A DNA stretch of 64,000 nucleotides from a bacterium A37T11 (GTDB lineage: Bacteria; Bacteroidota; Bacteroidia; Sphingobacteriales; Sphingobacteriaceae), in assembly GCA_900109895.1 (NCBI GenBank), contig FOBR01000014.1, positions 1 through 64,000 of the forward strand. Direction: 5' to 3'. Below, one piece after another: positions 24,531-40,880 of the stretch. The position numbers were made by a program, and so were the translations under genes. The stretch's first letter is position 1. Every line of letters starts with the position of its first letter. The notes beneath the pieces were generated by a model. That model saw only the letters and a program-made list of their open reading frames with translations. It had not been told where the DNA came from and ran no database searches.

Positions 24531-24716
24531 TTAATCCACCTTTTTATCCCTAGACCAGTTGCCCAAATGCCCATCCCATTGAATGCTGACGGACTTGGTT
24601 GTTACGTGTAGTTGCCGTGTTTCTTTTTGTGTTAATTGTTGCTGCTGGTGTTTTTGGGAAGCGCAGCTGGTTAGTGTCAGGACTATGATGGGTATGTAGT
24701 GTTTGAATTTTTTCAT
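24531..24716 (-). CDS. Small lipoprotein, 61 aa
   Basis: MKKFKHYIPIIVLTLTSCAS is a typical lipoprotein signal (Cys18), followed by about 40 polar residues with a run of glutamines and ending GHLGNWSRDKKVD. No known family recognised. The ATG at 24716 is chosen because the longer in-frame ORF adds non-signal-like residues encoded by the structured repeats upstream. Convergent with lacI. It may be co-transcribed with the FnIII gene through the two hairpin elements. Confidence 0.55.
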   Translation of the reverse strand: MKKFKHYIPIIVLTLTSCASQKHQQQQLTQKETRQLHVTTKSVSIQWDGHLGNWSRDKKVD

Positions 24717-24737
24717 GTTGATTGAATTTTTATGGTT

Positions 24738-24903
24738 ATTTAAAAAGTCCAATTGGTCTGGGGTCGAGCCTGCTTCGCAGCCAAGGCCCCCATCCCAACA
24801 GGACCTTTTAATTATCTCCTTATTATAAAATGGTGCTTTGGTCCGGGGCCGAGGCTGCTTCACAGCCAAGGTCCCCGTCCTCAAAGCCCCATTTTAATTA
24901 TCG
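24738..24903 (-). repeat. Two tandem structured elements with compensating outer stems
   Basis: Copies at about 24738-24817 and 24825-24903 share a core read on the minus strand as a GGGG/CCCC stem with GGCTG-loop-CAGnC inside. Each is closed by an outer stem whose sequence differs between copies yet still pairs: AAAAGGTCC/GGACTTTTT in one, AAAATGG..GCTTTG/CAAAGC..CCATTTT in the other. They could be tandem terminators or a structured RNA between the FnIII gene and the small lipoprotein gene. Confidence 0.65.
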
Positions 24904-25530
24904 GGCCAATAATGAGACCGTGTGCGACCAGTCTGCCAGCCCCATTCCATTACGGGCCCGCACACGTACCCAGTAGGTCACGCCGGCCATGACCGGAGCT
25001 ATGACGTTGCCCCGTGATACCCGCGTGGTCCTGATTTCACCCCAGATCACCTGGCCCGTGCTATCCAGCTCTGAGCTTATCTGGTACTCGTACTCCCATG
25101 CCCCTTTTATGGGCTCGAAGTCAAGCCTAAACTGACCCTTTTGCCGTCCATCCGTCAGGCTAACCCACAGCAGCACATCGGGAACGGCTAAGGATTTCAT
25201 CGGTGCAGCCAATACAAAGCCTGAGCTGGCAAGCGCATTGGCATCACCATTGGCGGTTACATTGACATAAAAGGCCATTTGTTTCATGGCCAGCACCAAG
25301 GCCGCTTTGCTGTTATTGCGCGCTGTTATTTCCAGCTTCCCTCCCGTTTCCTTTGCAGCTTCGTTCTTTATCCTGAACTCATCTGCCAATGCAGTATAAT
25401 CGGCAATGGGTATAGGCAGGTTTGGAAAGCTGTCATTGGCTGTCAGCGACTTGGCTGACTTGCCGCTTACGGTAGCCAGCAAATCTTCGCTGTACCGTGA
25501 ATAGTCTGTTAATACGCGTTGTTTTCGCAT
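24898..25530 (-). CDS. FnIII-domain protein, 210 aa
   Basis: N-terminal half is helical (LTDYSRYSEDLLATVSGKSAK; LADEFRIKNEAAKETGGKLE), and the C-terminal 85 residues form a fibronectin type III fold (FRLDFEPIKGAWEYEYQIS; VMAGVTYWVRVRARNGMGLA). No signal peptide. I recognise the architecture as common in Bacteroidota but know no assigned function. Downstream of the CHAP hydrolase on the same strand with a 41-bp gap, so probably one operon. Confidence 0.7.
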   Translation of the reverse strand: MRKQRVLTDYSRYSEDLLATVSGKSAKSLTANDSFPNLPIPIADYTALADEFRIKNEAAKETGGKLEITARNNSKAALVLAMKQMAFYVNVTANGDANALASSGFVLAAPMKSLAVPDVLLWVSLTDGRQKGQFRLDFEPIKGAWEYEYQISSELDSTGQVIWGEIRTTRVSRGNVIAPVMAGVTYWVRVRARNGMGLADWSHTVSLLAR

Positions 25531-25571
25531 GTTGTTTTTTCTCTATTTTTTAGTTAAATTATTGACTACTT

Positions 25572-26189
25572 TTATTTGTTTGAAACCCAGCCTGCTACTT
25601 TGTAAATTGTTTTGACCAGTCTCTTTTTCCGGTATACGCCTTCCCCAGGACCTGCACGGATCGGATTGCCAAAGCCATCCGCAGCTACGATGGAGCCGGT
25701 ATCGGAAGTATTGGCTTCTACCGTTATACACCACCTCTCGTTCCACGAATCGACAAACCCACAGTGGCCAATGCGTTTGAGCTCCTGGAAATAAATTCCA
25801 AACACATCTCCGGTTTGGGGGGTATGCCCACCCACGGCCCGAGCCCATATTACGCGCTTATCCGGAAACATGGTCGGGCTCCAGGCGGTCCTTGGCTCCG
25901 CCATTCCTGCCTTTGAAAAAACCCATGAAACGAAGGCACTGCAATAGGAATAGTTTCCTCTACGGCCCACCATGTGCAGGTATTGTTGCACCCTTGGCCC
26001 ATCGTTCTTTCCCGTCGCCTCCCTAACCCCCACCTCTGCGGAGTAAATACGGCGCAAAACTTCCCTACGTGCGGATTTTTCGCCTCTTTGGCCTTCAGGA
26101 TCTTTTACGACAACAAAACCCAAAACCCAAAAAAGCTCAATAAAACCAATCCCCAAAATGTACCTGAAATGATTTTTGCCTTCAAACAT
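25572..26189 (-). CDS. CHAP-like cysteine amidohydrolase with membrane anchor
   Basis: A 205-residue protein. An N-terminal hydrophobic segment (FRYILGIGFIELFWVLGFVVV) is followed by a CHAP/NlpC-like domain: YSYCSAFVSWVFSKAG has the nucleophile Cys, and IGHCGFVDSW the His. Such enzymes cut peptidoglycan cross-links or amide bonds. The ATG at 26189 starts inside the upstream gene, an 85-bp overlap in another frame; a later start would remove the membrane segment. Together with the membrane protein it resembles a lysis pair, but no phage genes are nearby. Confidence 0.65.
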   Translation of the reverse strand: MFEGKNHFRYILGIGFIELFWVLGFVVVKDPEGQRGEKSARREVLRRIYSAEVGVREATGKNDGPRVQQYLHMVGRRGNYSYCSAFVSWVFSKAGMAEPRTAWSPTMFPDKRVIWARAVGGHTPQTGDVFGIYFQELKRIGHCGFVDSWNERWCITVEANTSDTGSIVAADGFGNPIRAGPGEGVYRKKRLVKTIYKVAGWVSNK

Positions 26190-26527
26190 GATGAAATTCC
26201 TTTCGTTAATTCTCCTTGTACCAACCTGAGCAGCAACCACGCAGAAACTACCATTGCATCCATTACCAAAATCGACAATACACAAACGCTCAATATGCCC
26301 GTATCCAAAACTCCAGCTGTTGGATCAAACCATCTGATCAGTGGCCCACAAATCAGATATACGCCTGACAGGCCCAAGACCTGTCCTATCGCAATCAGGT
26401 ATTGCCATCCAGACCAGTACCAAAACGTCAACCAACGTATTCGTCTTACCGGATACCCGTCTATCCCTAAAACAGGAATACTTTGTTCACTTTTTCCACC
26501 CCAGGTGGAACCCAATTCTTTTTGCAT
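26105..26527 (-). CDS. Small multi-spanning membrane protein, 140 aa
   Basis: Soluble N-terminal 45 residues, then three or so hydrophobic segments (YLIAIGQVLGLSGVYLICG; TGILSVCVLSILVMDAMVVS; SGTFWGLVLLSFFGFWVLLS). No family recognised. It overlaps the start of the CHAP gene by 85 bp, which suggests coupled translation. Holin-like function would fit the neighbour but cannot be shown. Confidence 0.6.
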   Translation of the reverse strand: MQKELGSTWGGKSEQSIPVLGIDGYPVRRIRWLTFWYWSGWQYLIAIGQVLGLSGVYLICGPLIRWFDPTAGVLDTGILSVCVLSILVMDAMVVSAWLLLRLVQGELTKGISSCLKAKIISGTFWGLVLLSFFGFWVLLS

Positions 26528-27747: not shown

Positions 27748-28044
27748 CTACCGCAAACGTTTTATCTTTCGACCATACCACCATTTTTTGAATAGAAAAA
27801 TTAAATGGCCAAGTAGTGAGTTCTGGCCGGATACCGCTAAGGTAATATCCTTTGGCAGTAATTTATGCGGATTTACATCCAATACTTTGGCGATCTTAAT
27901 GATATGAATCAAAGTAATGGTTGTTTCCCCCGATTCTATTAAGCTATAGGCAGGCTGGCTCATTCCCAAAGCTTCTGCGATCTGGTCTTGTTTTATGTCC
28001 AGTTCTCTTCTTTTTTTCCGGATTATTTCAGGCACTCTGCGCAT
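27748..28044 (-). CDS. XRE-family transcriptional regulator, 98 aa
   Basis: An HTH_3 domain fills the first 65 residues (IIRKKRRELDIKQDQIAEALGMSQPAYSLIESGETTITL), followed by a basic tail with a hydrophobic stretch (LLGHLIFLFKKWWYGRKIKR). Probable DNA-binding repressor. It is divergent from the double-glycine peptide gene at 28184, with a 15-bp palindrome in the gap, so control of the peptide is plausible. Confidence 0.8.
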   Translation of the reverse strand: MRRVPEIIRKKRRELDIKQDQIAEALGMSQPAYSLIESGETTITLIHIIKIAKVLDVNPHKLLPKDITLAVSGQNSLLGHLIFLFKKWWYGRKIKRLR

Positions 28045-28078
28045 AAAATATAACTTAAAGTGTTAAAAATAGGTTTTT

Positions 28079-28093
28079 ATAAGCGTAGCTTAT
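28079..28093. promoter_or_regulatory. Palindromic candidate operator
   Basis: ATAAGCGTAGCTTAT: 6-bp arms around GTA, with a second half-like word (TGTAGCTTG) about 20 bp on. It lies between the XRE gene and the peptide gene. Candidate XRE binding site by position. Confidence 0.45.
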
Positions 28094-28183
28094 ATTATAT
28101 AAATGTAGCTTGTTTACTATATACCAGCATCTTACGATCTTTGTTTTTGTCTTTAATGCAGAAGACGAACACATAAAAAAATC

Positions 28184-28366
28184 ATGAAAAAAGCATTTAA
28201 ACATCACCCGGAAAATGTAAAACTGATCATTCCGGCAGAAATGACCGAAATGACTGCAGAAGCACAGGAGCTCATCACAGGTGGAACGCGGAAACCAAAT
28301 AGCAAGGTTTTTTTGGTAGCCCAGGCCATGATCTTCTACTTTACTTTTGGTATCCCGCTGTTTTAA
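28184..28366 (+). CDS. Double-glycine leader peptide (bacteriocin/RiPP-like precursor candidate)
   Basis: A 60-residue peptide. Residues 1-34 look like a C39-peptidase leader ending MTAEAQELITGG, with hydrophobic residues at -12 and -4 and Gly-Gly at -2/-1. The 26-residue remainder starts TRKPNSK and ends in a hydrophobic segment (VFLVAQAMIFYFTFGIPLF) with no Cys. The C39 exporter encoded 0.8 kb away on the same strand is the obvious processing enzyme. The rhomboid gene converges on it. I cannot name a family; reality rests on the leader motif and context. Confidence 0.55.
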   Translation: MKKAFKHHPENVKLIIPAEMTEMTAEAQELITGGTRKPNSKVFLVAQAMIFYFTFGIPLF

Positions 28367-28382
28367 CATCTCCTGCACCATG

Positions 28383-29041
28383 TCAATGTTCATTTTGATG
28401 GATGATTTCAAGTACCAACGATGGATGCAGGAGCAATGCGTACACCAAGCCGATAAAACGCCGGTCAAATGAGGTCCGGCGGCTCTACCGGTCTTGAGCG
28501 TTGCCAACACTATCAATATACCCAAGAAAGTCAAAGAGAGTTGGTACCCACATATAAATGGTGTCTTGCTCCCCGGTTTCATCGGTCCCTCCATGGGATA
28601 ATAGAGGCATGCAAACACAACCAATGCACACGTAAATGCAGACATTCCATAAATCGATACACCAGCATGCCTTCGGTATTTCAAACTGGTCAACCCATTA
28701 ACGATTACCACTACACCCACCCAAAACAGCAGAAACAAGCAGATGCCGCCATATGGTCCAAAATCACTTTTCAAAAAATATTCAATATCATCCATGAGGT
28801 AAAAAGCAAAACCTATATTCATCAGCAAATGCTTCCATCCCGCATGGATAAGTCCTGCCGTAAACAAGGTATACCTGTGCTTCTCATGGAGTACATCTTC
28901 TGGCCTGCATACCAGGTTTGCAAATAACGGAGGATGATAGAAAGCAATAATACTGGTCATACATACTAACAGCGTTACTCCATAAGTCAGTGGCGATTCA
29001 TTAAGTGAAGGCAATACAGAAAGGATAGATAGGGCTTTCAT
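28383..29041 (-). CDS. Rhomboid-family membrane protein with probable frameshift
   Basis: Rhomboid-like intramembrane protease. HAGWKHLLMN (residues 66-75) is the family TM2 signature; the Ser motif reads GVSIYGMS instead of GxSGA; His191 is in HLTGV. Directly after that the frame leaves the family: restoring one T in a T-run near 28463 gives VFIGLVYALLLHPS and a stop at 28383-28385, a normal 219 residues. As it stands the frame runs to 28055 with unrelated residues. Either a recent mutation or a homopolymer error. Confidence 0.65.
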
Positions 29042-29149
29042 CTTATTTCATACCATAGTATAATTTATGGTTAAATTTAAGAATATTTCAGATAGCTAAC
29101 AATTTTTTTGTCATAATTATCATCCATTTATGAAAATACTAACAAATTC

Positions 29150-31339
29150 ATGAAAAAGCACCGGCAACATGATCTGAAAGATTGCGGGGCCGCCTGCCTT
29201 GCCGCTGTGGCCGATCACTATGGCAAGTACGTTCCATTGGCATCGATCCGCTTGCTGACGGGCACCGACCGAAATGGGAGTAGTCTGGCCGGATTGCGGT
29301 ATGCAGCAAAAAAACTTGGTTTTCAAGCTCAGGCCGTACAGGGGAGTTATACCGGTCTTCAAAAAGCCATTTTGCCCGCTATTGTTCATTTAAAATTATC
29401 TGAAATGGATCATTTTGCGCTCGTTTTCCAAGCGGGCGCAAAAAATCTCCGTCTGATGGATCCAGTCAACGGGAAGCTAAAAACGGTAAAAACAAGTGCT
29501 TTTTTTCAACAGTGGGGCGGACATGCGTTGTTACTTCAACCCGGACCCACTTTTTGCAGCCAGGGTAAAGCACCTTCCCTATTCAGCCGCTTTACCCTGC
29601 TGCTCAGACCCCACCGGCATACCTGGCTTAAAGCACTTGCCGCTACCGCCTGTTGCAGCCTGCTCTCCTTTGGAAATGCCATTTTTGTCCAACTATTGGC
29701 AGACCGTGTCCTTGCCAAAGGCAATAGCGCTCTTTTAATGCCGCTCGTTTGTTTGTTTAGTGCGTTGCTTATTATCCAAACCGTACTTAGCGTCCTAAAA
29801 AACCTGGCCGTTTTAAAGACTGGCCGCGCTATTGACCACCAACTCATACACGGTTATTGCCGCCATTTACTCCAATTACCTCAACGGTTTTTCGACCAAA
29901 TGCAGACCGGGGAGATCATCTCACGAATCAATGACGCTTTTAAAGTGCGTTACTTTGTCAATGATGTACTGGTGAACTTAAGCGTGCCGCTATTTGTCAT
30001 ACTTATCTCGCTCACGTTGCTTATGGGTGTCCATTGGCGCCTGGGCGTTGTCATCCTCGCCGCTCTACCCATATATATGATCGTTTATCGTATCAGTTAT
30101 TTTATCCATGGCAAAGTGCAGCGTCGTATCATGGAACAAGATGCCGAGCTGGATGCTCAATTGACCGAGAGCCTGCGTGCTATCCGCACAGTAAAACAAT
30201 TGGGACTAGCGCTCCCTATCTCGCTCAAAACAGAAAGCCTGCTTTCCAACCTGCTCCACACCTCCTCTATTTCTGGCAAAAATACCATCTTTACAGATGC
30301 CAGTACCGAATTTCTGGCACAAGCCATCAGCCTTGGCCTGTTATGGCTGGGCAGCCATCTGGTTTTGGAAGGGGGGCTCAGCCTGGGCGAACTGCTCTCC
30401 TGCTATGCGATACACGGCTACTTCAGCCGATCGGCCAGCCAGCTTATCGGGTTAAATAAAAGCTTACAGGACGCACGCATAGCTATGGAAAGGCTCTATA
30501 GCATTCTGGAACTTCCTCCAGACGAAGACCCCACGGCTACGCTATGTCAACCGGATCACCTGGCCGGTATCTGGTTTGAAAAGGTGACCTTTGGCTATAA
30601 CCCGCGTCAACCCTTGTTATCTGAGGTCAATCTGCATATTCCCGCCGGGCAGATCACCTTGATCACAGGCCCATCCGGATCCGGAAAAAGTACCCTTTTC
30701 TCCCTCCTTCTCCAACAATATGTACCAGATGGCGGACAGATTCGATTTGGCATTTACGCCAGTTCGCTCATCAGCCATGAAGGTTTATTACGGCATATAG
30801 CCGTAGTACCACAACATACAGCGCTTTTTTCGGGGACCATTGCCGATAATATGACTAACGGAATTGGAGAGCCTGATGCAGATCGTATCCTTCAATTATG
30901 TAACCAGTTGGGCCTGCTGCCCTTTATAGAAAGCCTGCCTCTCGGCTTAGACAGTCCCGTAGGAGAAAATGGCCAGTTGTTCTCCGGCGGCCAGCGACAA
31001 CGCCTGTCCATTGCCCGGGCGTTATACCGGCAACCGCAAGTTTTACTCCTGGATGAACCGACGGCAGCACTGGATGAGGATGCCGAGCAAGACGTACTAC
31101 GATGCTTAACTGAAGCTTGCCGCCAAGGAATGACTATCGTCATCATCAGCCACCGCAATGCCTGCCTGACCATCGCTGACCATATACTCGAGGTCAGCCA
31201 AGGTCACATCCTACCCCGCACACCACAGACCGAATATAACAACATCATTCATTCACCCCTCAGCCCGCCCACCCCTGCCGATGAAACCCGCGGCCAGGCC
31301 GGCGGGCTGATACAAAAAAGAAAGGAAAAGCCCTATTAA
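29150..31339 (+). CDS. C39-peptidase ABC exporter (PCAT type)
   Basis: A 729-residue peptidase-containing ABC transporter that cuts a double-glycine leader and exports the peptide. Peptidase C39: Gln6, Cys12 (DCGAAC), His88 (MDHFALVF), Asp104. Membrane domain from about 160 to 440. ATPase: Walker A GPSGSGKST, signature FSGGQRQR, Walker B VLLLDEPTAALD, H-loop ISHR. All catalytic residues are present. No HlyD or TolC partner is encoded nearby, unlike many such loci in this phylum. The likely substrate is the peptide at 28184. Confidence 0.93.
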   Translation: MKKHRQHDLKDCGAACLAAVADHYGKYVPLASIRLLTGTDRNGSSLAGLRYAAKKLGFQAQAVQGSYTGLQKAILPAIVHLKLSEMDHFALVFQAGAKNLRLMDPVNGKLKTVKTSAFFQQWGGHALLLQPGPTFCSQGKAPSLFSRFTLLLRPHRHTWLKALAATACCSLLSFGNAIFVQLLADRVLAKGNSALLMPLVCLFSALLIIQTVLSVLKNLAVLKTGRAIDHQLIHGYCRHLLQLPQRFFDQMQTGEIISRINDAFKVRYFVNDVLVNLSVPLFVILISLTLLMGVHWRLGVVILAALPIYMIVYRISYFIHGKVQRRIMEQDAELDAQLTESLRAIRTVKQLGLALPISLKTESLLSNLLHTSSISGKNTIFTDASTEFLAQAISLGLLWLGSHLVLEGGLSLGELLSCYAIHGYFSRSASQLIGLNKSLQDARIAMERLYSILELPPDEDPTATLCQPDHLAGIWFEKVTFGYNPRQPLLSEVNLHIPAGQITLITGPSGSGKSTLFSLLLQQYVPDGGQIRFGIYASSLISHEGLLRHIAVVPQHTALFSGTIADNMTNGIGEPDADRILQLCNQLGLLPFIESLPLGLDSPVGENGQLFSGGQRQRLSIARALYRQPQVLLLDEPTAALDEDAEQDVLRCLTEACRQGMTIVIISHRNACLTIADHILEVSQGHILPRTPQTEYNNIIHSPLSPPTPADETRGQAGGLIQKRKEKPY

Positions 31340-31445
31340 ACCCCGATTTATCCCTACCCAACAAGATTTTAGCTGGCGGCGTTTTAAAAAAATTGACAAG
31401 CCACCTGCAGATTGTGACCATCCCATCCCAGCTGCCAAACAGGCC

Positions 31446-32312
31446 GTGTTGGAAGACGATACAGCCCAGGTCCTTTGCCAACGCATTACGGGCGAAAATT
31501 TCAGCATGCGCCAGTTTTCCATAAAACCGGTCAGTGGCGCTATATCGTTTCCATTTAACTGCCTGCACCGAAGCCTAATACTCGTCTATGCCCTGAAAGG
31601 CCCGTTGATAGCTCGTTTTGTGCCCGATACAGAACCGGTCATCCTTCCCTCCCGCTTTTATTTGGGAACCTTGCTGGTGCCCGGCAGCTATCAGCTGGAG
31701 TTGCCCGCTACAGACAGTTCCTATCTATATGTCCAGATCCGCTACCGCTACCTGCGGTTTCTCAGTAAAAAGAATAAGGCACTCCGTCCCTTATGCCGGG
31801 CTTTTGAAGAAAGCCCCAGCCAACCCATTTACTTCCAGATGGCCTACATTGACCAGGAGGTATTAAAACTGTTTTCGCGCATCAAAGCCCTCGGTCTATC
31901 AGACAACCATTTGCCCATCGCTATTAAACACTACCTCGTTGACCTCTTGCAACACTATGGACAGCAACTCTTACGGTCAGACCCCATCGCCTATTTAAGA
32001 AGCGAAGAAAAAGTCCTGCTATTGATGCAGCATCTGCAGCTGCACTATACCGCACATGGTATAGAGAAACTGGACACCTTAAAAGCGCAGTTTTACTTAT
32101 CGCGAAGTACACTCACCCGGGTATTTGAGGATATGTATGGTTGCTCCATAGGCTATATGGTCACCTACTTGCGCATGCACCAGGCCAAAAGACACATTCG
32201 GGATGGGCTCACGATAAAAAAGTCCGCCCAGCTCGTCGGATTTGAAAATGAATTTGCATTTAGCCGGGCTTATCATTCCTTCTTCGGCCATTCCCCACGC
32301 CAAAAAGATTAA
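31446..32312 (+). CDS. AraC-family regulator (N-terminus uncertain)
   Basis: C-terminal AraC HTH pair: LDTLKAQFYLSRSTLTRVFEDMYGCSIGYMVTYLRMHQAKRHI, then KKSAQLVGFENEFAFSRAYHSFFGHSPRQ. The N-terminal 200 residues may be a sensor domain. The first usable start is GTG at 31446, but the frame stays open to about 31310, just inside the end of the ABC gene, with protein-like sequence and an ATT where an ATG would be expected, so the true start may be non-canonical or mutated. It follows the exporter and may regulate it. Confidence 0.8.
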   Translation: MLEDDTAQVLCQRITGENFSMRQFSIKPVSGAISFPFNCLHRSLILVYALKGPLIARFVPDTEPVILPSRFYLGTLLVPGSYQLELPATDSSYLYVQIRYRYLRFLSKKNKALRPLCRAFEESPSQPIYFQMAYIDQEVLKLFSRIKALGLSDNHLPIAIKHYLVDLLQHYGQQLLRSDPIAYLRSEEKVLLLMQHLQLHYTAHGIEKLDTLKAQFYLSRSTLTRVFEDMYGCSIGYMVTYLRMHQAKRHIRDGLTIKKSAQLVGFENEFAFSRAYHSFFGHSPRQKD

Positions 32313-32483
32313 AAATTGCCCAACGGGTTACTTTCTTGCCTAATGCCTTGAAATTATGAGCCAATCCGCCATGTTTTCAGGTCAAAATTGTGTGTTCCTT
32401 TGTAGTGTTAAGTCTGCCCAATGAAAGGATAGTTTTGACGACAAAAAATGAGAGATATATATAAGGCATAAAATAATAAAAAT

Positions 32484-33869
32484 ATGAACGCATCGGCAGA
32501 CATCGGGATTACCACCAGCAACTATCGGGATTACCTAAAGAAAAGATGTGCGGCCTGTAAGGCGGATGACAAACTGCTTTACATTATGGAGCCAGTAGTA
32601 AAACCTGGATGGATGCTGTTCATTAGTTTGACCCTACTTGATTGGGAGACATTGATCGATCCGATCCTGGATATTTTAGTAGCCGAGCATGTGTCTTTTA
32701 TCTTACCTAAAAACCGGGAGGTCCATAATCAGATTAACAGTGATGGATTGGGTGGGCAATTTACTGGGAAGGTCATCACCATATTTCCCAACAGCGAGTT
32801 GCAGCTTACGTATTTATTGGAACGGTTAGTATCTGTGACCCGGACGGCCAAGGGTATCCGCATACCCAAAACTTATTATCTCGGTGGCCAGGTATATGGT
32901 GGCTACGCCACTTCCCCTTCTGGCTTATATAAGGAAGCGATCTTTTCATTGCCAAAAATCCATCCGTTTGGTGAGAAGATCCACCACCTATCAGCCGGAA
33001 AACGACTGATTGCGGGTTCGTTTATTCCTGTACAATACATCCGCAGCGGTGCAAAAAGCGATATTTATAAAGGGGTATCCATCCGCAAGCCATTTATGCA
33101 ATGGTGTTTTATTAAAAAGGGTAAGATTAACTCCGCCGCTGATGAAACCGGTAGGGATATCTATGATCGGCTGCGGTGGGAACACGAAGTACTGCTAAAA
33201 TTGAAAGGATTTCCATTTGTTCCAAAAGTCTATGGAATGAGCAGTGATGCGGAGCATATGTACCTGATCACTGAGTTTATTGATGGAGTTACCCTTTCTG
33301 ATAAACTGAAGGATTTGCTGGAAGGAAAAACCTATAAAGAGGCTGACCTTGCCATTAAAATAGAAGTATTGGATATTTTTAGTGACCTTCTCTATTCCAT
33401 GCAACAGTTACACGACCTAGGAGTGGTTCATCGGGACCTCACCGACAGCAATGTGCTCTTTAGCAAAAAAGGTGGTATTCATCTGGTGGATTTTGAATTG
33501 GCTTATGACCTCCAAAATGACCGGCCTGATCCTGCTTTTGTATTTGGCACATTGGGCTATGTGTCTCCTGAACAGATGTCATATGCCAGACCCACTATCC
33601 AGGAGGATCTGTATTCTCTGGGCGCATTGTTGTATGCCGGCCTGACTGGCCATCAACCCAAAAACACATTACTTAAATCTAAAACCCACGCGCTCCAAAG
33701 GCTGACAGACCAAACCGGTTCATCCGGACTCTCGGCCATCATTCGGAAATTATTGAATGATACACCTGATGAACGGTTACCGTTATCTCAGGTAAAAACA
33801 GTTCTCGTAACTGAAAAACTGGCCATTTTAGCTGCTATTGTCGCAGGAAAGGAGGTCTATCATGCCTAA
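32484..33869 (+). CDS. LanKC-like lyase/kinase protein without cyclase domain
   Basis: A 461-residue protein resembling the first two domains of class III lanthipeptide synthetases. The N-terminal lyase-like part has [18 protein letters not shown] and [12 protein letters not shown]. The kinase part has Lys in the WCFIKKGK strand, HRDLTDSN (316-323), DFE (336-338) in place of DFG as in LanKC enzymes, and [10 protein letters not shown]. The LanC-like cyclase that normally follows is missing: the next gene starts within its last codons. It may phosphorylate and dehydrate Ser/Thr of a peptide, or act as a plain kinase. Confidence 0.75.
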
Positions 33870-34350
33870 GCGCTGGGTTTTGGAAATTGTGGTAGCCTTT
33901 GTATTCTTATACCTGGTCATCACCGGCGGGGCCAAGCTTTTTGACTTTAAACAGTTCGGCTTTGACATGAATGCACAGCCAGTAGCCGAGTGGATCAAAC
34001 CCTGTTTGAAATATTCTATCCCATTTATACAAATTATTTTGGCGTTTCTTCTGGAAATTGATAAGACCAGGTTGGCTGCTTTGGTGGGAAGTACCGTCTT
34101 GATCGCTAGTTACATTGTTTATATTTTAGCTATCAACCACGATTTCTTTCCATTTCAGCCTTGTTCCTGCACATGGATCAACAAACATTTGGCCTATACC
34201 CATACCCTGCACCTAAATGTTATTGCCATTAGCTGGACTGCTTATGGTTTATTAATAGTGCTTATAGCAGGCTTGATAAAGCGCAGGAAACATCGTAAAA
34301 CTCAGAAATTACATTCATTTAATATTCATAAGGAGGAACTGGTATCATGA
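33862..34350 (+). CDS. MauE/DoxX-like redox membrane protein
   Basis: About 162 residues with four hydrophobic segments ([62 protein letters not shown]) and a PCSC motif between helices 3 and 4, as in MauE-type membrane redox proteins that help form disulfides. Start at 33862, 8 bp inside the LanKC-like gene, with AAAGGAGG at the right distance. Followed by another AAGGAGG and the 13-codon ORF. Fits the downstream TlpA-like protein and two-Cys secreted protein. Confidence 0.8.
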
Positions 34351-34388
34351 AAAAGGTGTATCATTTTAATACGGGCCATCCGCCCTAG
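34347..34388 (+). CDS. Coupled 13-codon ORF
   Basis: ATGA overlap with the MauE-like stop and a perfect AAGGAGG at 34330-34336, 10 nt upstream. The product would be [13 protein letters not shown]. If its TAG were read through, the frame would continue for about 19 more codons. It has no Ser or Cys, so it is not an obvious lanthipeptide. Could be a tiny peptide, a leader peptide, or the start of a broken gene. Confidence 0.35.
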   Translation: MKKVYHFNTGHPP

Positions 34389-34466
34389 GCACTTCGGCGA
34401 ACACATTGGGGTGATCTGTCACTTAAAAAACAGCCCAAATTTTTATAAAAATAAATAACTCACAAA

Positions 34467-34748
34467 ATGAAAACTTTAAGAATAGTAATGCTTGCAGTAT
34501 TAGGACTTGCAGGCTATGTTGGAGCTGGCGCCGCTGCAGGCGCAAATCGGCAAAGTGGTACGTTGTACCACAAAATTGGGTCAAATAATTATGAGGTTGT
34601 GCTTGCTTCCAATATGGGAAGTGCTCCTGGAAAATGGAGTTGTACAACAAATCCGGACGCAACTTGCACTTATAATAGGAACAGCGCCGCTCCCATCAGT
34701 GATTCCAATGCAGTCCAGGCATCAGCCGGTAATTTTGTTCAACATTAA
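34467..34748 (+). CDS. Small secreted two-cysteine protein (DUF6520-like)
   Basis: A 93-residue protein: signal peptide (MKTLRIVMLAVLGLAGYVGA), then a mature part with a conserved-looking LYHKIGSNNYEVVL and two Cys (59 and 67) in KWSCTTNPDATCTYN. It resembles small Bacteroidota proteins found near MauE and TlpA-like genes, which I know as DUF6520; the assignment is from memory of pattern. The two Cys probably form a disulfide made by the neighbouring redox proteins. Followed by a bidirectional terminator. Confidence 0.65.
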   Translation: MKTLRIVMLAVLGLAGYVGAGAAAGANRQSGTLYHKIGSNNYEVVLASNMGSAPGKWSCTTNPDATCTYNRNSAAPISDSNAVQASAGNFVQH

Positions 34749-34788: not shown

Positions 34789-34818
34789 AAGGGATAGGCT
34801 CAGCGGCCTATCCCTTTT
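34789..34818. terminator. Bidirectional terminator
   Basis: AAGGGATAGGC/GCCTATCCCTT 11-bp perfect stem with a 6-nt loop and T-rich flanks, between the convergent two-Cys protein and TlpA-like genes. Its loop overlaps the TlpA stop codon. Confidence 0.8.
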
Positions 34819-36287
34819 AGGTTTTTATCAATGAGTTCCATAAGTATTTTGGAATCCGGGTGGATACCTCCACCTAAATCGTAAATATTCCGGCTGATGA
34901 TATGCCCATTTTTGCCAATCAAAAAGGGAGCCGGTGCCCCATTTACCCCATAGGCCTTACAAACAGAATGATCAAAACCTTCCCCTTCGGTATATAAATT
35001 AATGGCGTGCTCACTGGTATATTTATTTTCTCTGATGGCGTTAATCCATGTTAATTTGTTTATATCCAATGAGATAGAAACAAATACAATGTCGGGATTG
35101 TCTTTATAACGATTTTCTATAGCTGCCAATGTATTGCTAAATAGCATCGCACATGGGATGCAACCTTTAAACCAAAAATGGAGGTATACCAACTTACCCT
35201 GAAATTTATCAAGCGCTATTTTTTGACCATGTTCATTCTCCAAGTTAAAGTTGTAAGCAACCGACCCATCCCCGAATTTTTTAGATATTTCGCTCAATAG
35301 TTTTCTATAAGGCTGGAATTGGATATGCCGAGTTTCCGCTTTCATCAAACTATCCAGGTTACTAACCTGATCAATGCTTAAAAGAAGATTATGGGTGATC
35401 AATTTGTCTTTCATGAAACCTACGTATTGTTGATTGGCCACATCATAATAATTCAGCTTTCCCTTCGTCAAAAAAGACTCAAGAGATAGTTCCTCAAAAG
35501 CAAATTCCATGTAGCTTGGTGAAAAACTATAGGTATCCTGAAGATCTTTATTAGTTAGTTTATTATACTTTTGCAGCAGGATTAAGGTTTTGTCAAAATT
35601 CTTTTTGCTGCTTTTTAGGTTTCCATTGGTGTAGTAGAACAAGGCAGCCGAAGCGGCTGCCTTAAGGGATTTACCGATCATTTCAGCAGCAAGCAGATCG
35701 TAACAAACCGGTGAAACCTGTTTTCTGAAACGATCCAGTGCATCTACTAATTTCCCTGACAACTCGTTGCCATTTCTAAAATAGATCTCCTGCGTTCTGA
35801 TGACGGCGCTGTCGCCTTTATTTTTTAAAGACAATACTTCGCCGATCGTGGAGTTACTAAGTGAATCGCTTACGGTTTTTAAACGACGGGACAAATCTTC
35901 CATCAATGTATATTTTATGGAATTCCTTCCGGAAAATTCATTCCCTTTACTTTTACACCAGATCATGATGGAATCCCCGGCTTCCGCTACAAAGCGGTCC
36001 AGGAGGATTCCTCCGCTGTATCGCAATGAGAATACACAAGCCGGATCAGGAAGGACAAGATCAAAGGTATATTTCCCGTTTTTAAGTTGTGCATCCATTT
36101 TTTTAACCGGCAGCATACTTTCCAGATACGGCAGGTAGGATTTGTCGTAAATGAGCAAAGTCAACGATCGGTCGCTTGCCGCACTATCTGCAAAATGGAC
36201 AGTGAAATGATACCGGTTTTCCGCAAACAACGACTCGGATCCCGTTAATGCGATAAAAAAAATTAAACTAAGAGCTCTTAAGTTCAT
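34800..36287 (-). CDS. TlpA-like thioredoxin-fold protein (495 aa)
   Basis: Signal peptide, a DUF4369-like N-terminal beta domain, a helical middle, and a C-terminal TlpA/thioredoxin domain (from about residue 355) with the redox motif CIPC in LHFWFKGCIPCAMLF and a cis-Pro in NGAPAPFLIG. It acts in the periplasm in disulfide reduction or oxidation. It ends in the shared terminator and is the last gene of a SusC-SusD-TlpA operon. The context with MauE and a two-Cys secreted protein supports a disulfide role. Confidence 0.88.
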   Translation of the reverse strand: MNLRALSLIFFIALTGSESLFAENRYHFTVHFADSAASDRSLTLLIYDKSYLPYLESMLPVKKMDAQLKNGKYTFDLVLPDPACVFSLRYSGGILLDRFVAEAGDSIMIWCKSKGNEFSGRNSIKYTLMEDLSRRLKTVSDSLSNSTIGEVLSLKNKGDSAVIRTQEIYFRNGNELSGKLVDALDRFRKQVSPVCYDLLAAEMIGKSLKAAASAALFYYTNGNLKSSKKNFDKTLILLQKYNKLTNKDLQDTYSFSPSYMEFAFEELSLESFLTKGKLNYYDVANQQYVGFMKDKLITHNLLLSIDQVSNLDSLMKAETRHIQFQPYRKLLSEISKKFGDGSVAYNFNLENEHGQKIALDKFQGKLVYLHFWFKGCIPCAMLFSNTLAAIENRYKDNPDIVFVSISLDINKLTWINAIRENKYTSEHAINLYTEGEGFDHSVCKAYGVNGAPAPFLIGKNGHIISRNIYDLGGGIHPDSKILMELIDKNLKGIGR

Positions 36288-36298
36288 GTGCTGATTAT

Positions 36299-37696
36299 TT
36301 AGGGCCTTGGATTCTGAACGAGGTGATTTAGCCTGATCTCCTCGCCCGGGATGGGCAATGTATATAAATTGCTATTCGGAGGCAGTTGATAAACGGTGCC
36401 GTCCAGTTGCCGGCTGACGGTGATATGAAACCCTTCTTTGTTTAATCTCCGGAGGTCCTGCCATCGAAGACCTCGAAAAGCCAGTTCTTTTCTTCTTTCT
36501 GCCAGCACAGTGTTTAAAGCACTACTTTGGTCAGTAATTTGATAGGGCATGTATTTACCGGTCCTAAACCGGGTGATGAGGAGTTTGTTCAGCAGGCCTA
36601 TCCCTTCTTCAACCTGATTATTCCGAATCAGGCATTCCGACCTGATGAGGTATAGTTCATCCATAGCGAAACCACCAAAATTATCGTACCCTCCATAGCT
36701 CAGATTGTTATTCGCTTTTCCAGGATAGGCGTAAGAGGGGGTATAATAAAAATCCTTTCTTAAATCATCAGGTAAATATGAATCGTATAGCGTTGAATCA
36801 ATCAGGGTATTGGGACTTCCCCCGGCCGCATAGAATATAGGGTCATTAATGCCCAAAGCGCTTTGGCAGATCGTTTCCGGATTGTTATAGTCAATATAAA
36901 ACGGCGTGGATTGTGTCGCCAGATCATTGTAATTGAGAAGCTGATCGGTTAAAGCCAGGCTTTTTTCTGCATAGGTACCTGCATACCCGTAGTCTCTCAT
37001 GGCAAGATAAACTCTGGATAAGGCTGCATATGCGGCCTCTTTACAGGGACGCCCCCTCAATTTGGAGGGCAGGCCTGCCGGGAGCAAATCCGCAGACAGC
37101 GCGAAGTCTTTTATCAATTGGGTATAGGTCAATTTCAGTGTTGCCCGGCCGTAGGATTGGTCCACGTTCGGCGAAAGCCGGAGGGGAATGCCTAAATCCG
37201 TTTCGGCAGAAGAAGGATCGTATACCGGGGCAAACAGCTGTGCTAAATTAAAAAAGGCATACGAGCGGCAAAATAAAGCCCATCCTTTCACAAAATCCCA
37301 CTGAAAGGCATTGATGTCGTTTCTTTGGACCCCATTTAAACCGTCTAACACAACATTTGCGATAAAAACCTGCTGATAGGCACTGGACCAATCCAATATT
37401 CCATAGGAACTTTCCTCAAAATCGGGTTTGAAAAGATAGGCGCTTCGTTGATACACCAGGACCAATGCTTCCAGTGCGCTCCGGTTTGCCAGGTAAAAAT
37501 TGTCAGAAGAGATCTCCCCCAGGTTGGAGGTTGAATTCATGAGCTCATAATTGTCCAAAAGCCGGGTATAATCGTCCAGGGTTTTAGGTATAATCAGCGC
37601 AGTATACGGCTTTTTATCCAAATATTTTTGGCAAGAAGTGGTCAATACGGCCATCAGGCAGCAAATACATGCAGTTATTTTTTTAATTAATTTCAT
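36299..37696 (-). CDS. RagB/SusD family lipoprotein (465 aa)
   Basis: Lipoprotein signal (LTTSCQKYLDKKP, Cys22), a short SusD-like fold with FVKGWALFCRSYAFFNLAQLF, RPCKEAAYAALSRVYLAMRDY, and a C-terminal LYLIRSECLIRNNQVEEGI and LAERRKELAFRGLRWQDLRRL ending NPRP. The smaller size and the TlpA neighbour are typical of SusD proteins tied to protein or peptide uptake rather than glycans; that link is inference. Confidence 0.9.
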   Translation of the reverse strand: MKLIKKITACICCLMAVLTTSCQKYLDKKPYTALIIPKTLDDYTRLLDNYELMNSTSNLGEISSDNFYLANRSALEALVLVYQRSAYLFKPDFEESSYGILDWSSAYQQVFIANVVLDGLNGVQRNDINAFQWDFVKGWALFCRSYAFFNLAQLFAPVYDPSSAETDLGIPLRLSPNVDQSYGRATLKLTYTQLIKDFALSADLLPAGLPSKLRGRPCKEAAYAALSRVYLAMRDYGYAGTYAEKSLALTDQLLNYNDLATQSTPFYIDYNNPETICQSALGINDPIFYAAGGSPNTLIDSTLYDSYLPDDLRKDFYYTPSYAYPGKANNNLSYGGYDNFGGFAMDELYLIRSECLIRNNQVEEGIGLLNKLLITRFRTGKYMPYQITDQSSALNTVLAERRKELAFRGLRWQDLRRLNKEGFHITVSRQLDGTVYQLPPNSNLYTLPIPGEEIRLNHLVQNPRP

Positions 37697-37706
37697 CTTC
37701 TGATCT

Positions 37707-40700
37707 TTAAAACGTGGCTTTCATCCCAAGTGCAATGCTTTTTTGTTGGGGTAGGTCAGTAAACTCTGGGTCGATGTCTGCTTTCTTCCAGATCTGGCCC
37801 AAATCGGATAAGTACAGATTGCAACTTAAGTCGGAAAACGGGAAACCGGAAATCCTGCTTTTGCTCCATTGATAAGAGAGCTGGATGTCCTGCAGCCGGA
37901 TATGGTCTCCTCTGGCAACAAGTACTTCCGAATTGCTGTAAAATTGGTCCCTGCTACTGCTCCTTGGATAGGTCATCGAAGGTACATCTGTGGTCGCCTC
38001 ATCCCCCGGTTGTTGCCATCGCTTGCTGTAATCGCTTTTGCCGGGTGTATCCAACGTGAAAAGCCCGCTGTAATTAATGGAAAGTTGCCGGAAATAATAA
38101 CCCAGCTTGTACAGCACATTAAAAGACAAGGTCAGTTGCTTGTACTGAAAGGTGTTCCGTAAACTACCAAACAATTGCGGGCTGGAAGTGCCGTTATAAA
38201 TCACGCTTTCTTCGTTGTCAGCTGTATTAATACTACTCCATGCCTTACTTGGCTCGCCGTTCAGATAACCTATGGGATCGCCAGTCGCCGGATCAAGCCC
38301 TGCCCACCTGTAGCTGTAAAGGGCGCTATATGGTTTTCCTTCGTGGAGCCCCAAGGCGGTCGTTGACGCCATATAATGGGTGATTTTGTCGGCACTATAG
38401 CTAAGCAAGAACTGTGTGGACCATGTAATATCAGGGCTTACTAAATTGTTGGAAGATACGTTGACATCAAGCCCATTTCCGGTCATATCGGCAGCATTCC
38501 CTTTGAATTGCGTAAAACCTGTGGACGCTGCCAGAGGACTAAAACCGATCAGATCTTTCGCGTTCCTGGTATAGTATTCTATACTCCCGAAAAGCCTGTT
38601 TTGCGTTATGGAAAAATCCAGGCCGTAATTCCTGACCGCGATCTTTTCCCAGCGCAGGGAAGGATTAGGCGGGTTAACGATCGTGGCGGCATTGGTAGCA
38701 AAGGTATAACTGTATTGAGCCTGTGCTGTTGTAAAAGCCGAAACGGTTTTGTCGACATTGCCATTGTATCCATGGGTGACGCGCAGGCGCAAATAAGGCA
38801 ACCAATCCAGTTGGTAAAAGGATTCCTTGCTCAGTATCCAGCTCCCTCCCACAGACCACAGCGGGACGGTTTTTTGATTGGCTTTTACACCGAATAGATT
38901 GGAGGCGTCTTTGCGGCCGCTTAAGGTAAGGGTATACTTGCTGTCATAGGTATATGCTGCGTTTGCATAGTACGAGTAAGATCGGTCTGTCGTACCGCCT
39001 GTGGAAGCCACAAGGGGAATGGGCCGCTTTGCGCCTGTTATAATCGTTGGGTACGGGTTGACGTAATCCATGGCACTAAAAGCTCCGATATCTCCATCAT
39101 AACCATACAACCTGTTTTTGTCAAAGGAGCTTTCGTAGTCCTTTAGTTCTGCACCGGCAATGGAGGTGACCTGGTGTTTTTCAAACGACCAATCAAAGTT
39201 TAGTTGCCCGCGCACATTGTGCGAGTAAAAACCGGAGCGGTATCGATCCAGGATATCCCCTTCCGGAATGATTTTGTTTAACGCACCAGTAGCCCGATTT
39301 ACTTGCGTATACTGATTGACCAGATCACGTACAAAATACGTGTCCGCACCTTGCAGGTTGTCTTCTTCATTATTGCCGCTCGTATATTGGTAGAGTACAC
39401 TGAGGGAAAACAGTTTGTTTATTTTGTATTTCAGGCTGCTGTTTATGGTGTAAGTGGTGATTTTGCGATGGTCATCATATTGGTTAAATTCATCCATGGG
39501 TTTCCTTGACCAATCTAACAAGGCTCCGCCTCCGATCGTGTCTATCCAGGATTTACGGTAAGGATAGTCTGTAGTTGGATTTCCGGCATCGTCTACCAAA
39601 GGAATATAGATGCGGATTGGGCGAATATTGGCGCTGTTGGAACTGTAGCTGATCTTGTTGACAACATAGTTCACCCCGATGTTCATTTCTAACCGGTCTT
39701 TTAATAGATAATAGGTATTCGCCGCATTCAGTGTAATTCGGCTGTCGCCGGCTTTTTGCATCTCTCCAATGTTGTCATCATACCCTGCAGAGAATAGATA
39801 TTTGTTATGGGCACCCCCACCATTGATACTAACTGCGTTCTGTTGGTTGACGGCATTCCGGTAGAAGTATTTTTCCTGGTCTCGTCGGTAGTCATATTGC
39901 GATAGTTGAGCGATCTGAGCGCTGGCTTCATCTGCTGTGATACCCCCATCTCGTTGTTTGAACAGAATATCCTGTAAGGGGGAGATCGCCTGATAGGCTA
40001 CAGCGGAGTACCAATCGAATACGTTTTTGTCAAACAGGAATTTTTCCACTTCGATCATATCAGCGGTAGACATTTGGTGCCTGCCCATCATATCGGCCTT
40101 CTCCCGGATAGTCACATTGGAACTGATAGTCACTTTTGCGGCCTGGTTCAACTGGCCTTTTTTGGTGGTGATCACAATGACGCCATTGCCTGCCCGCACA
40201 CCCCAAATGGAGGCTGCGGCGGCATCTTTCAAAATGGTGACCGAGGAAACATCATTCGGATTTATAGTAGAGAGGTCTCCATCATAGGGAAAATTATCTA
40301 CTACAATCAATGGATCGGCATTGGCCAATATGGTACTGCGGCCCCGGATGCTAAACCCGAGGGTATTGGTTCCGTTGTTTGGCCCGACACCAAATAGCAC
40401 ACTACTGGACACGCCTTTGAGGCGATCAAGTATATTTGTTGAAAAGCTCCGGTTTAGCAGGGTACTGTCAATAACGGTAAAACTTCCGGTGCTGCGCTCG
40501 GGTGAAAGTTTTTGATACCCCGTACTTACCTCCACTTCCTCCAGCTCATTTCCCTCTGATGCCAATTTTATGATGAGTGGCATCTTGGTATCCGGGCCGA
40601 AAGGGATTTCTTGGGCTTGGTAGCCAAGGAAGGTGACGAAGATGGTGCCTTTAATAACAGGCGTCGTTAACCTAAAGCTGCCGTCCTTATCGGTCATTAC

Positions 40701-40880
40701 CCCTAAACCACCGGATTTGAGTTTGACGGTGGCACCTTCAAGGGGCTTGTTGTCGCTGGCGGAGATCACGGTGCCGGTAATGCTGCGCGGCTGGGTTTGT
40801 GCCTGGACAGAACCCGTTATTAAGCTGACTATGCATAGGAATGGCACGTACCATCCCCCTAAGCGTAAAATTTGCTTCAC
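37707..40880 (-). CDS. SusC/RagA TonB-dependent transporter (1057 aa)
   Basis: Signal ending VQAQTQP, carboxypeptidase-like domain (ITGTVISASDNKPLEGATVK), TonB box (EEVEVSTGYQKLSPERSTGS), plug with IRGRSTILANADPLIVVDNF and LKDAAAASIWGVRAGNGVIV, then the barrel. No STN domain. The plug variant IWGVRAGNGVIVI differs from the two glycan-type SusCs in the window (LYGSRGANGVV/IYGSRGAKGVV) and marks a different SusC clade. First gene of the SusC-SusD-TlpA operon; a hairpin cluster lies upstream. Confidence 0.92.
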   Translation of the reverse strand: MKQILRLGGWYVPFLCIVSLITGSVQAQTQPRSITGTVISASDNKPLEGATVKLKSGGLGVMTDKDGSFRLTTPVIKGTIFVTFLGYQAQEIPFGPDTKMPLIIKLASEGNELEEVEVSTGYQKLSPERSTGSFTVIDSTLLNRSFSTNILDRLKGVSSSVLFGVGPNNGTNTLGFSIRGRSTILANADPLIVVDNFPYDGDLSTINPNDVSSVTILKDAAAASIWGVRAGNGVIVITTKKGQLNQAAKVTISSNVTIREKADMMGRHQMSTADMIEVEKFLFDKNVFDWYSAVAYQAISPLQDILFKQRDGGITADEASAQIAQLSQYDYRRDQEKYFYRNAVNQQNAVSINGGGAHNKYLFSAGYDDNIGEMQKAGDSRITLNAANTYYLLKDRLEMNIGVNYVVNKISYSSNSANIRPIRIYIPLVDDAGNPTTDYPYRKSWIDTIGGGALLDWSRKPMDEFNQYDDHRKITTYTINSSLKYKINKLFSLSVLYQYTSGNNEEDNLQGADTYFVRDLVNQYTQVNRATGALNKIIPEGDILDRYRSGFYSHNVRGQLNFDWSFEKHQVTSIAGAELKDYESSFDKNRLYGYDGDIGAFSAMDYVNPYPTIITGAKRPIPLVASTGGTTDRSYSYYANAAYTYDSKYTLTLSGRKDASNLFGVKANQKTVPLWSVGGSWILSKESFYQLDWLPYLRLRVTHGYNGNVDKTVSAFTTAQAQYSYTFATNAATIVNPPNPSLRWEKIAVRNYGLDFSITQNRLFGSIEYYTRNAKDLIGFSPLAASTGFTQFKGNAADMTGNGLDVNVSSNNLVSPDITWSTQFLLSYSADKITHYMASTTALGLHEGKPYSALYSYRWAGLDPATGDPIGYLNGEPSKAWSSINTADNEESVIYNGTSSPQLFGSLRNTFQYKQLTLSFNVLYKLGYYFRQLSINYSGLFTLDTPGKSDYSKRWQQPGDEATTDVPSMTYPRSSSRDQFYSNSEVLVARGDHIRLQDIQLSYQWSKSRISGFPFSDLSCNLYLSDLGQIWKKADIDPEFTDLPQQKSIALGMKATF

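Follow-up and report, generated by a model that had tools for sequence, protein, structure and literature searches.

Gene content and organization of the locus

The region between positions 27748 and 34748 of a 64,000-nucleotide stretch of the genome of the bacterium A37T11 (Sphingobacteriaceae; contig FOBR01000014.1, positions 1 to 64,000; hereafter the window, to which all coordinates refer unless another locus is named) was described in an earlier note as a candidate peptide-maturation and export locus of eight genes. All eight were found in place, six of them with Pfam matches that exceed the curated cut-offs; the peptide gene is supported by a paralog and by synteny (Table 1). Based on the present data, the locus consists of two separable modules that lie side by side, and not of one pathway for a ribosomally synthesized and post-translationally modified peptide (RiPP). 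Module A comprises, in this order, an XRE regulator (−), a precursor peptide with a double-glycine (GG) leader (+), a rhomboid (−) and a C39 peptidase-ABC exporter (+). Module B has the order (LANK)-MauE-two-Cys secreted protein, usually opposite TlpA/SusD/SusC genes, where LANK denotes the cyclase-less LanKC-like protein; the MauE start codon overlaps the 3′ end of the LANK gene. The convergent TlpA-SusD-SusC genes (34800-40880), which were left out of the earlier note, are part of the locus picture.

Table 1. Features of the locus, with coordinates, strand and supporting evidence.
Feature	Position	Strand	Evidence and remarks
XRE-family regulator, 98 aa	27748..28044	-	HTH_3 4.6e-15; divergent from the peptide gene
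GG-leader precursor peptide, 60 aa	28184..28366	+	translation; L190 alignment; conserved position in 16 loci
Rhomboid-family intramembrane protease	28415..29041	-	Rhomboid PF01694 9.4e-07
C39 peptidase-containing ABC exporter, 729 aa	29150..31339	+	Peptidase_C39 6.3e-29, ABC_membrane 5.2e-33, ABC_tran 1.6e-30
AraC-family regulator	31446..32312	+	HTH_AraC; HTH_18 2.8e-15; alternative ATG start 31506
Promoter-like element TATATATAAGGYATAAAA	32456..32473	+	precedes the LanKC-like operon
LANK, cyclase-less LanKC-like protein, 461 aa	32484..33869	+	RamC_N PF25816 6.9e-11, Pkinase 1.3e-29
MauE-like membrane redox protein	33862..34350	+	MauE 1.7e-17; CSC in sequence
Small secreted two-Cys protein, 93 aa, DUF6520-like relatives	34467..34748	+	C59 and C67 invariant
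TlpA-like thioredoxin-fold protein	34800..36287	-	Thioredoxin_8 4.9e-11; convergent; place conserved in relatives
SusD homologue	36299..37696	-	named by sequence recognition; synteny and similarity in relatives
SusC homologue, TonB-dependent outer membrane transporter	37707..40880	-	named by sequence recognition; synteny and similarity

Linkage and separability of the two modules

Searches of genome samples of up to 395 genomes, and a search of contigs with a profile built from a 5-sequence alignment, yielded loci (designated L below) in which the arrangement of the two modules could be compared. Most LANK loci have no C39 genes (for example L049, L051, L070, L072, L073 and L076-L080), and those in which LANK occurs together with C39 genes or the peptide module are the window, L047, L048 and L069/L074. 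Module A occurs without LANK in L177-L185, in L187-L189 and in the paralogous locus L190 of the same genome, while in L222, from a different genus, the XRE, peptide, rhomboid and C39-ABC genes are accompanied by a 163-aa gene and both MauE and LANK are absent. The two modules are separable because LANK is found mostly without C39 genes, module A mostly without LANK, and L222 without the MauE cassette. On this point the single maturation pathway, or RiPP class, proposed in the earlier note is not supported. Its proposed linkage of the peptide module to the MauE and two-Cys genes, and sometimes to LANK, is nonetheless found in the loci just named; nor did we encounter what the note would have taken as refutation, namely that LANK homologues never occur with C39 exporters or small peptides or that the peptide is not conserved, as co-occurrence was seen in several loci and the peptide is conserved. 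Nearly all module-A loci examined adjoin MauE, two-Cys and SusD/SusC genes (counts not corrected for phylogeny), the exceptions being L222 and L186, a rhomboid standing alone. In the genome of A37T11 itself, both C39 loci precede TlpA-SusD-SusC genes.

Module A and its precursor peptide

The order and orientation of module A recur in L190 and in at least 16 other loci. L190, which carries the only other C39 gene of the genome, consists of XRE (−), GG peptide (+), rhomboid (−), C39-ABC (+) and AraC (+) genes, after which come the gene for a Cys-rich secreted protein and, running convergently, TlpA, SusD and SusC; its AraC gene occupies the same place as in the window. Identities between the window and L190 are 51% for the exporters, 32% for the XREs and 28% for the rhomboids. 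When a rhomboid profile was run against 301 genomes of the family, a top group of 16 genomes, that of the window included, was separated by a gap from generic rhomboids; the rhomboid core in this search spans positions 28415-29026, and the Ser (GVS) and His (HLTG) are visible in the alignment.

The leader of the window peptide ends in MTEMTAEAQELITGG and is followed by a 26-aa core, TRKPNSKVFLVAQAMIFYFTFGIPLF, which has a basic start, a hydrophobic tail and no Cys. None of the Pfam and NCBIfam models searched matched the peptide. Its open reading frame (ORF) is weak evidence when taken alone, because it lies wholly antisense within the over-long rhomboid ORF 28055-29041. It is supported, however, by the L190 paralog, which has the same position and orientation (E-value 0.002, 35% identity over 37 aa in a small local search), and by a conserved GG peptide between XRE and rhomboid genes in 16 of the 17 loci scanned within this rhomboid clade (15 genomes of the rhomboid top group together with L069 and L074). 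The conserved form in these 16 loci is M-(K/E)-x-L-x-D...(G/A)G...C..........GGLFGG.GA..GA..AATGP(S/A)CL..W. The synteny and the L190 paralog led us to reject the possibility that the peptide is a chance antisense ORF, and the window locus is a divergent member of this conserved XRE-peptide-rhomboid arrangement. The rhomboid frame of the window lacks a stop codon where such genes usually end, and its part from 28055 to 28420 continues antisense across the entire peptide gene; in L047 the ends of the rhomboid and peptide genes are about 35 bases apart.

The peptidase, membrane and ATPase domains of the exporter are united in one protein, and a short precursor with a leader ending in GG lies near the exporter both in the window and in L190. 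The pairing of a C39 ABC exporter with a double-glycine-leader peptide, as put forward earlier, was thus borne out by the three Pfam domains, the translation and L190. A literature search for rhomboids combined with double-glycine, C39 or bacteriocin terms returned no described system of this kind among the titles and abstracts listed. In L047, L048, L069, L177-L185 and L187-L189, a C39 protein of about 450-505 aa adjoins an RteC-like gene and a conserved gene for a 213-aa protein of unknown function; in the C39 protein of L047, Pfam detects the peptidase and part of the membrane domain, whereas the ATPase domain is missing. In sister genera (L194-L221), many C39-ABC exporters have a neighbour of about 390 aa and conserved GG peptides (MK.LEL.NLGV.EM...VEGGG), which are possibly an undescribed peptide family.

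LANK resembles lanthipeptide synthetases but has lost lyase residues

An AlphaFold (AF2) model of LANK had a predicted local distance difference test (pLDDT) score of 89.9, and its best fold matches in the PDB were CuvL, ThurKC, SalKC and PneKC, with template-modelling (TM) scores of about 0.6-0.7 by query length. We mapped seven lyase residues of ThurKC onto LANK. At ThurKC K65, H67, K94, K108, K117, D152 and R163 the window has M44, F46, I73, G88, K96, T130 and G140, respectively, so that one of the seven, the equivalent of K117, is retained. Across 37 sequences, K65 is kept in 2, H67 in 8 and R163 in 2, while the solved ThurKC and CuvL retain K65, H67, K94, D152 and R163 in the profile alignment. 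In ThurKC, the K65A and R163A variants showed no turnover, K94A gave only unmodified peptide, K108A formed no dehydroalanine or dehydrobutyrine, H67A stalled, D152A was strongly impaired, and K117A still carried out up to 11 dehydrations, with stalling (PMC10604976). The single residue retained in the window is therefore exactly the one whose loss ThurKC tolerates best. By contrast, none of the 37 sequences departs from the kinase residues K211, HRD 316-318, N323, D336 and E338, the counterparts of ThurKC K257 and of its HRD, Asn and DxE positions.

Because the lyase residues are lost and the kinase residues are invariant, LANK is probably a kinase without lyase activity. Of the features of a class III lanthipeptide synthetase, the Ser/Thr kinase was found, and the catalytic Lys/His/Lys/Asp/Arg set of the lyase, a LanC-like cyclase and, in the GG peptide, a core with Ser/Thr and Cys were not. 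The description of this gene in the earlier note as a LanKC-like lyase/kinase without a cyclase accordingly stands as to the kinase residues and the missing cyclase, but the lyase active site is largely gone. With lyase residues lost, the cyclase absent and no Cys in the peptide core, a lanthionine RiPP from this locus is unlikely, and the same three points speak against the single RiPP pathway of the earlier note.

The RamC_N domain was found in 17 of 301 family genomes and in 4 of 395 genomes of a class sample, the genome of the window being counted in both. Named relatives of LANK belong to Mucilaginibacter, Chitinophaga and uncultured Chitinophagaceae, with distant matches in two Actinomadura and one Akkermansia; when 60 relatives were searched directly with the LANK sequence, the matches outside the window were weak ones to kinases only. 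The C-terminus of the family takes three forms: none, LanC-like (PF05147 in L057), or an apparent membrane segment with an extra domain. Pfam gave no LANC_like match for the window LANK, and none of its families matched the extra C-terminal domain, which looks propeller-like by eye only and also occurs as separate genes near MauE. In five members the kinase is fused to the apparent membrane segment and the extra domain, of which L050 has a truncated version and the other four a complete one; such fusion in one clade hints at signalling. In a tree of 37 rows, a 100/100 branch divides the LanC-bearing rows from the rest, L052 being the one exception. The window LANK forms a long branch whose exact place is unsure. 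The possibility that the cyclase was lost by recent truncation was rejected, as 19 of 20 cyclase-less rows lie across the 100/100 branch from the LanC-bearing rows, although the window row is itself a long branch. At many loci LANK lies between a regulator (Crp-like, AraC or a small helix-turn-helix protein) and MauE; there is no MauE next to LANK in L053, L055 and L056. At the LanC-bearing locus L081 (13222-15645 in that locus), the two-Cys gene is present four times, together with a fragment of MauE and a free-standing gene that resembles the C-terminal domain of the fused kinases.

MauE, two-Cys and SusCD cassettes

MauE is present in 120 of 121 genomes of the family. The genome of A37T11 has 22 copies, at least 9 of which adjoin a small secreted Cys-containing protein; SusD or TlpA genes are often convergent, and LANK is found only at the window copy. 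In the window, the MauE-family membrane protein has a Cys pair and a thioredoxin-fold TlpA-like neighbour, the combination expected of a MauE/DoxX-type redox system. The two Cys of the small secreted protein (C59 and C67) are invariant across 41 aligned sequences. No Pfam family matched the window protein; DUF6520 matched weakly in the relatives L058 and L049, with no match above the cut-off in the A37T11 genome. Because its predicted structure was of poor quality (pLDDT 57), no conclusion was drawn from it. Literature searches on DUF6520 and NVEALA found nothing, and one on MauE with SusD or TlpA gave nothing relevant among the titles and abstracts listed. A 13-codon open frame (34348-34389) overlaps the end of MauE ahead of the two-Cys gene.

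The promoter-like element TATATATAAGGYATAAAA has an exact match, within this genome, only in the window and in the paralogous locus C52 (105945-105962), and a one-mismatch copy lies upstream of another MauE gene (C28, 164491-164508). An element of the form TATATATAAGGYATAAA(A/T) is thus common to three cassettes of the genome, although short matches of this type within the window alone are near chance expectation. Upstream of the locus, genes for a CHAP peptidase and a weakly fn3-like protein (24531-26527) have homologues, with the order kept, upstream of L190, and similar-looking pieces precede the MauE cassette L133.

Proposed function and alternative explanations

The explanation that we favour, by a modest degree, is that two modules have docked and that LANK, a Ser/Thr kinase turned to a new purpose, has joined a disulfide/SusCD cassette. 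C39 exporters that cut and export GG peptides are a known mechanism for the family. The exporter of the window is predicted to cut after GG and to export the 26-residue product, which could be bacteriocin-like or a signal; the XRE protein would be the likely regulator of module A, and the rhomboid a maturation or immunity protease. MauE and MauD are a membrane redox protein paired with a thioredoxin-fold protein, and by analogy MauE and TlpA of the window may act as a MauE/MauD-like, or DoxX/thioredoxin-like, pair on the cysteines of the two-Cys protein, while SusCD would handle, at the outer membrane, either what module B produces or a ligand. LANK would phosphorylate Ser/Thr on a cytosolic target, its old lyase fold serving recognition, and would form neither dehydro-amino acids nor lanthionines. 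Most likely it serves in signalling or in regulating the cassette. Gene content, synteny, separability, residue loss, predicted fold and clade were established by computation, whereas all activities and the role of LANK are inferred.

Several observations weigh against this explanation. The lyase mapping, made at about 18% identity, may slip in loops, the K108 column, which lies in a loop, being the least sure. The helix-C Glu position of the kinase is Gln in 36 of 37 sequences, the window having Glu. The cyclase-bearing relatives L084, L055 and L081 retain more lyase residues, and parts of the LANK lineage may still dehydrate. The operon position of LANK is no proof of signalling, and LANK could phosphorylate the peptide or the two-Cys precursor. 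Finally, cyclase-less LANK and module A recur together in distant loci, which could reflect a working link.

The first alternative, which we regard as unlikely, is that LANK phosphorylates the two-Cys precursor in the cytosol prior to secretion, the product of module B being a phosphorylated or tagged small protein. The LANK gene directly precedes the MauE and two-Cys genes and overlaps MauE, two-Cys genes are multiplied at the LANK loci L076, L077, L081 and L084, and the fold retains the lyase-kinase arrangement where class III leaders bind. However, two-Cys genes of the same type lie beside MauE without a kinase in L096 and in other cassettes of the A37T11 genome, so the kinase is dispensable for the core chemistry. 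Even less probable is one RiPP pathway in which LANK modifies the GG peptide by phosphorylation or dehydration, MauE determines its redox state, and cleavage and export fall to the C39 exporter. The physical linkage of all these genes in the window, L047, L048 and L069/L074 would fit such a pathway, as would the binding of leader helices by class III synthetases (PMC10604976), but the lost lyase residues, the missing cyclase and the Cys-free core described above oppose it, and syntenic peptides occur without LANK in most loci and in L190. Equally doubtful is that a bacteriocin-type cassette landed by chance beside one of the numerous MauE/SusCD cassettes and that the two have no function in common. 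Each module is also found apart, and the RteC-like gene at many module-A loci suggests mobile elements, but nearly every module-A locus examined is docked beside MauE, two-Cys and SusD/SusC genes, as is that of the window and, with a different Cys-rich protein, L190.

Comparison with known systems

LANK resembles the class III LanKC enzymes ThurKC, SalKC and PneKC and the synthetase CuvL in its architecture, in which a lyase-like N-terminal domain precedes a Ser/Thr kinase that carries a DxE motif. It differs from them in that it has no cyclase, keeps K117 alone of the seven lyase residues, and has no Cys-containing core at its locus. What looks new is a pseudo-lyase kinase family with alternative C-termini (none, LanC-like, or membrane anchor with extra domain), whose cyclase-less members would be overlooked by LanC-based mining (as in PMC7268733). 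If LANK-type proteins have shed dehydratase chemistry, natural-product enzymes have been redirected to another task, and such proteins should not be counted as RiPP synthetases. More broadly, we tentatively raise the possibility that the MauE-(TlpA)-two-Cys-SusCD genes of Sphingobacteriaceae and Chitinophagaceae make up a secreted-protein system that is heavily amplified and has yet to be described, and whose copies might be controlled by interchangeable front ends (Crp, AraC, XRE with an exported GG peptide, or LANK, sometimes membrane-anchored with the extra domain), lanthipeptide synthetases having become signalling kinases. The repeated occurrence of MauE/two-Cys/SusCD cassettes indicates that SusCD systems have a use not yet characterised.

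Module A resembles double-glycine (class II bacteriocin-type) systems in its GG leader and in the C39 and ABC exporter near the peptide gene. The family has many C39/GG-peptide clusters of a similar kind; unlike these, the window has a rhomboid and an XRE gene by the exporter in fixed order and no gene of about 390 aa. Module B resembles the DoxX/thioredoxin pair SviE/SviF of sviceucin-type lasso clusters, for which disulfide formation is itself speculative, in that a membrane redox protein and a thioredoxin-fold protein stand beside a small cysteine-containing product (PMC9266682). In contrast to that pair, the product in the window is a secreted protein, about 90 aa long, whose N-terminus resembles a signal peptide, it is linked to SusCD, and MauE occurs in many copies per genome.

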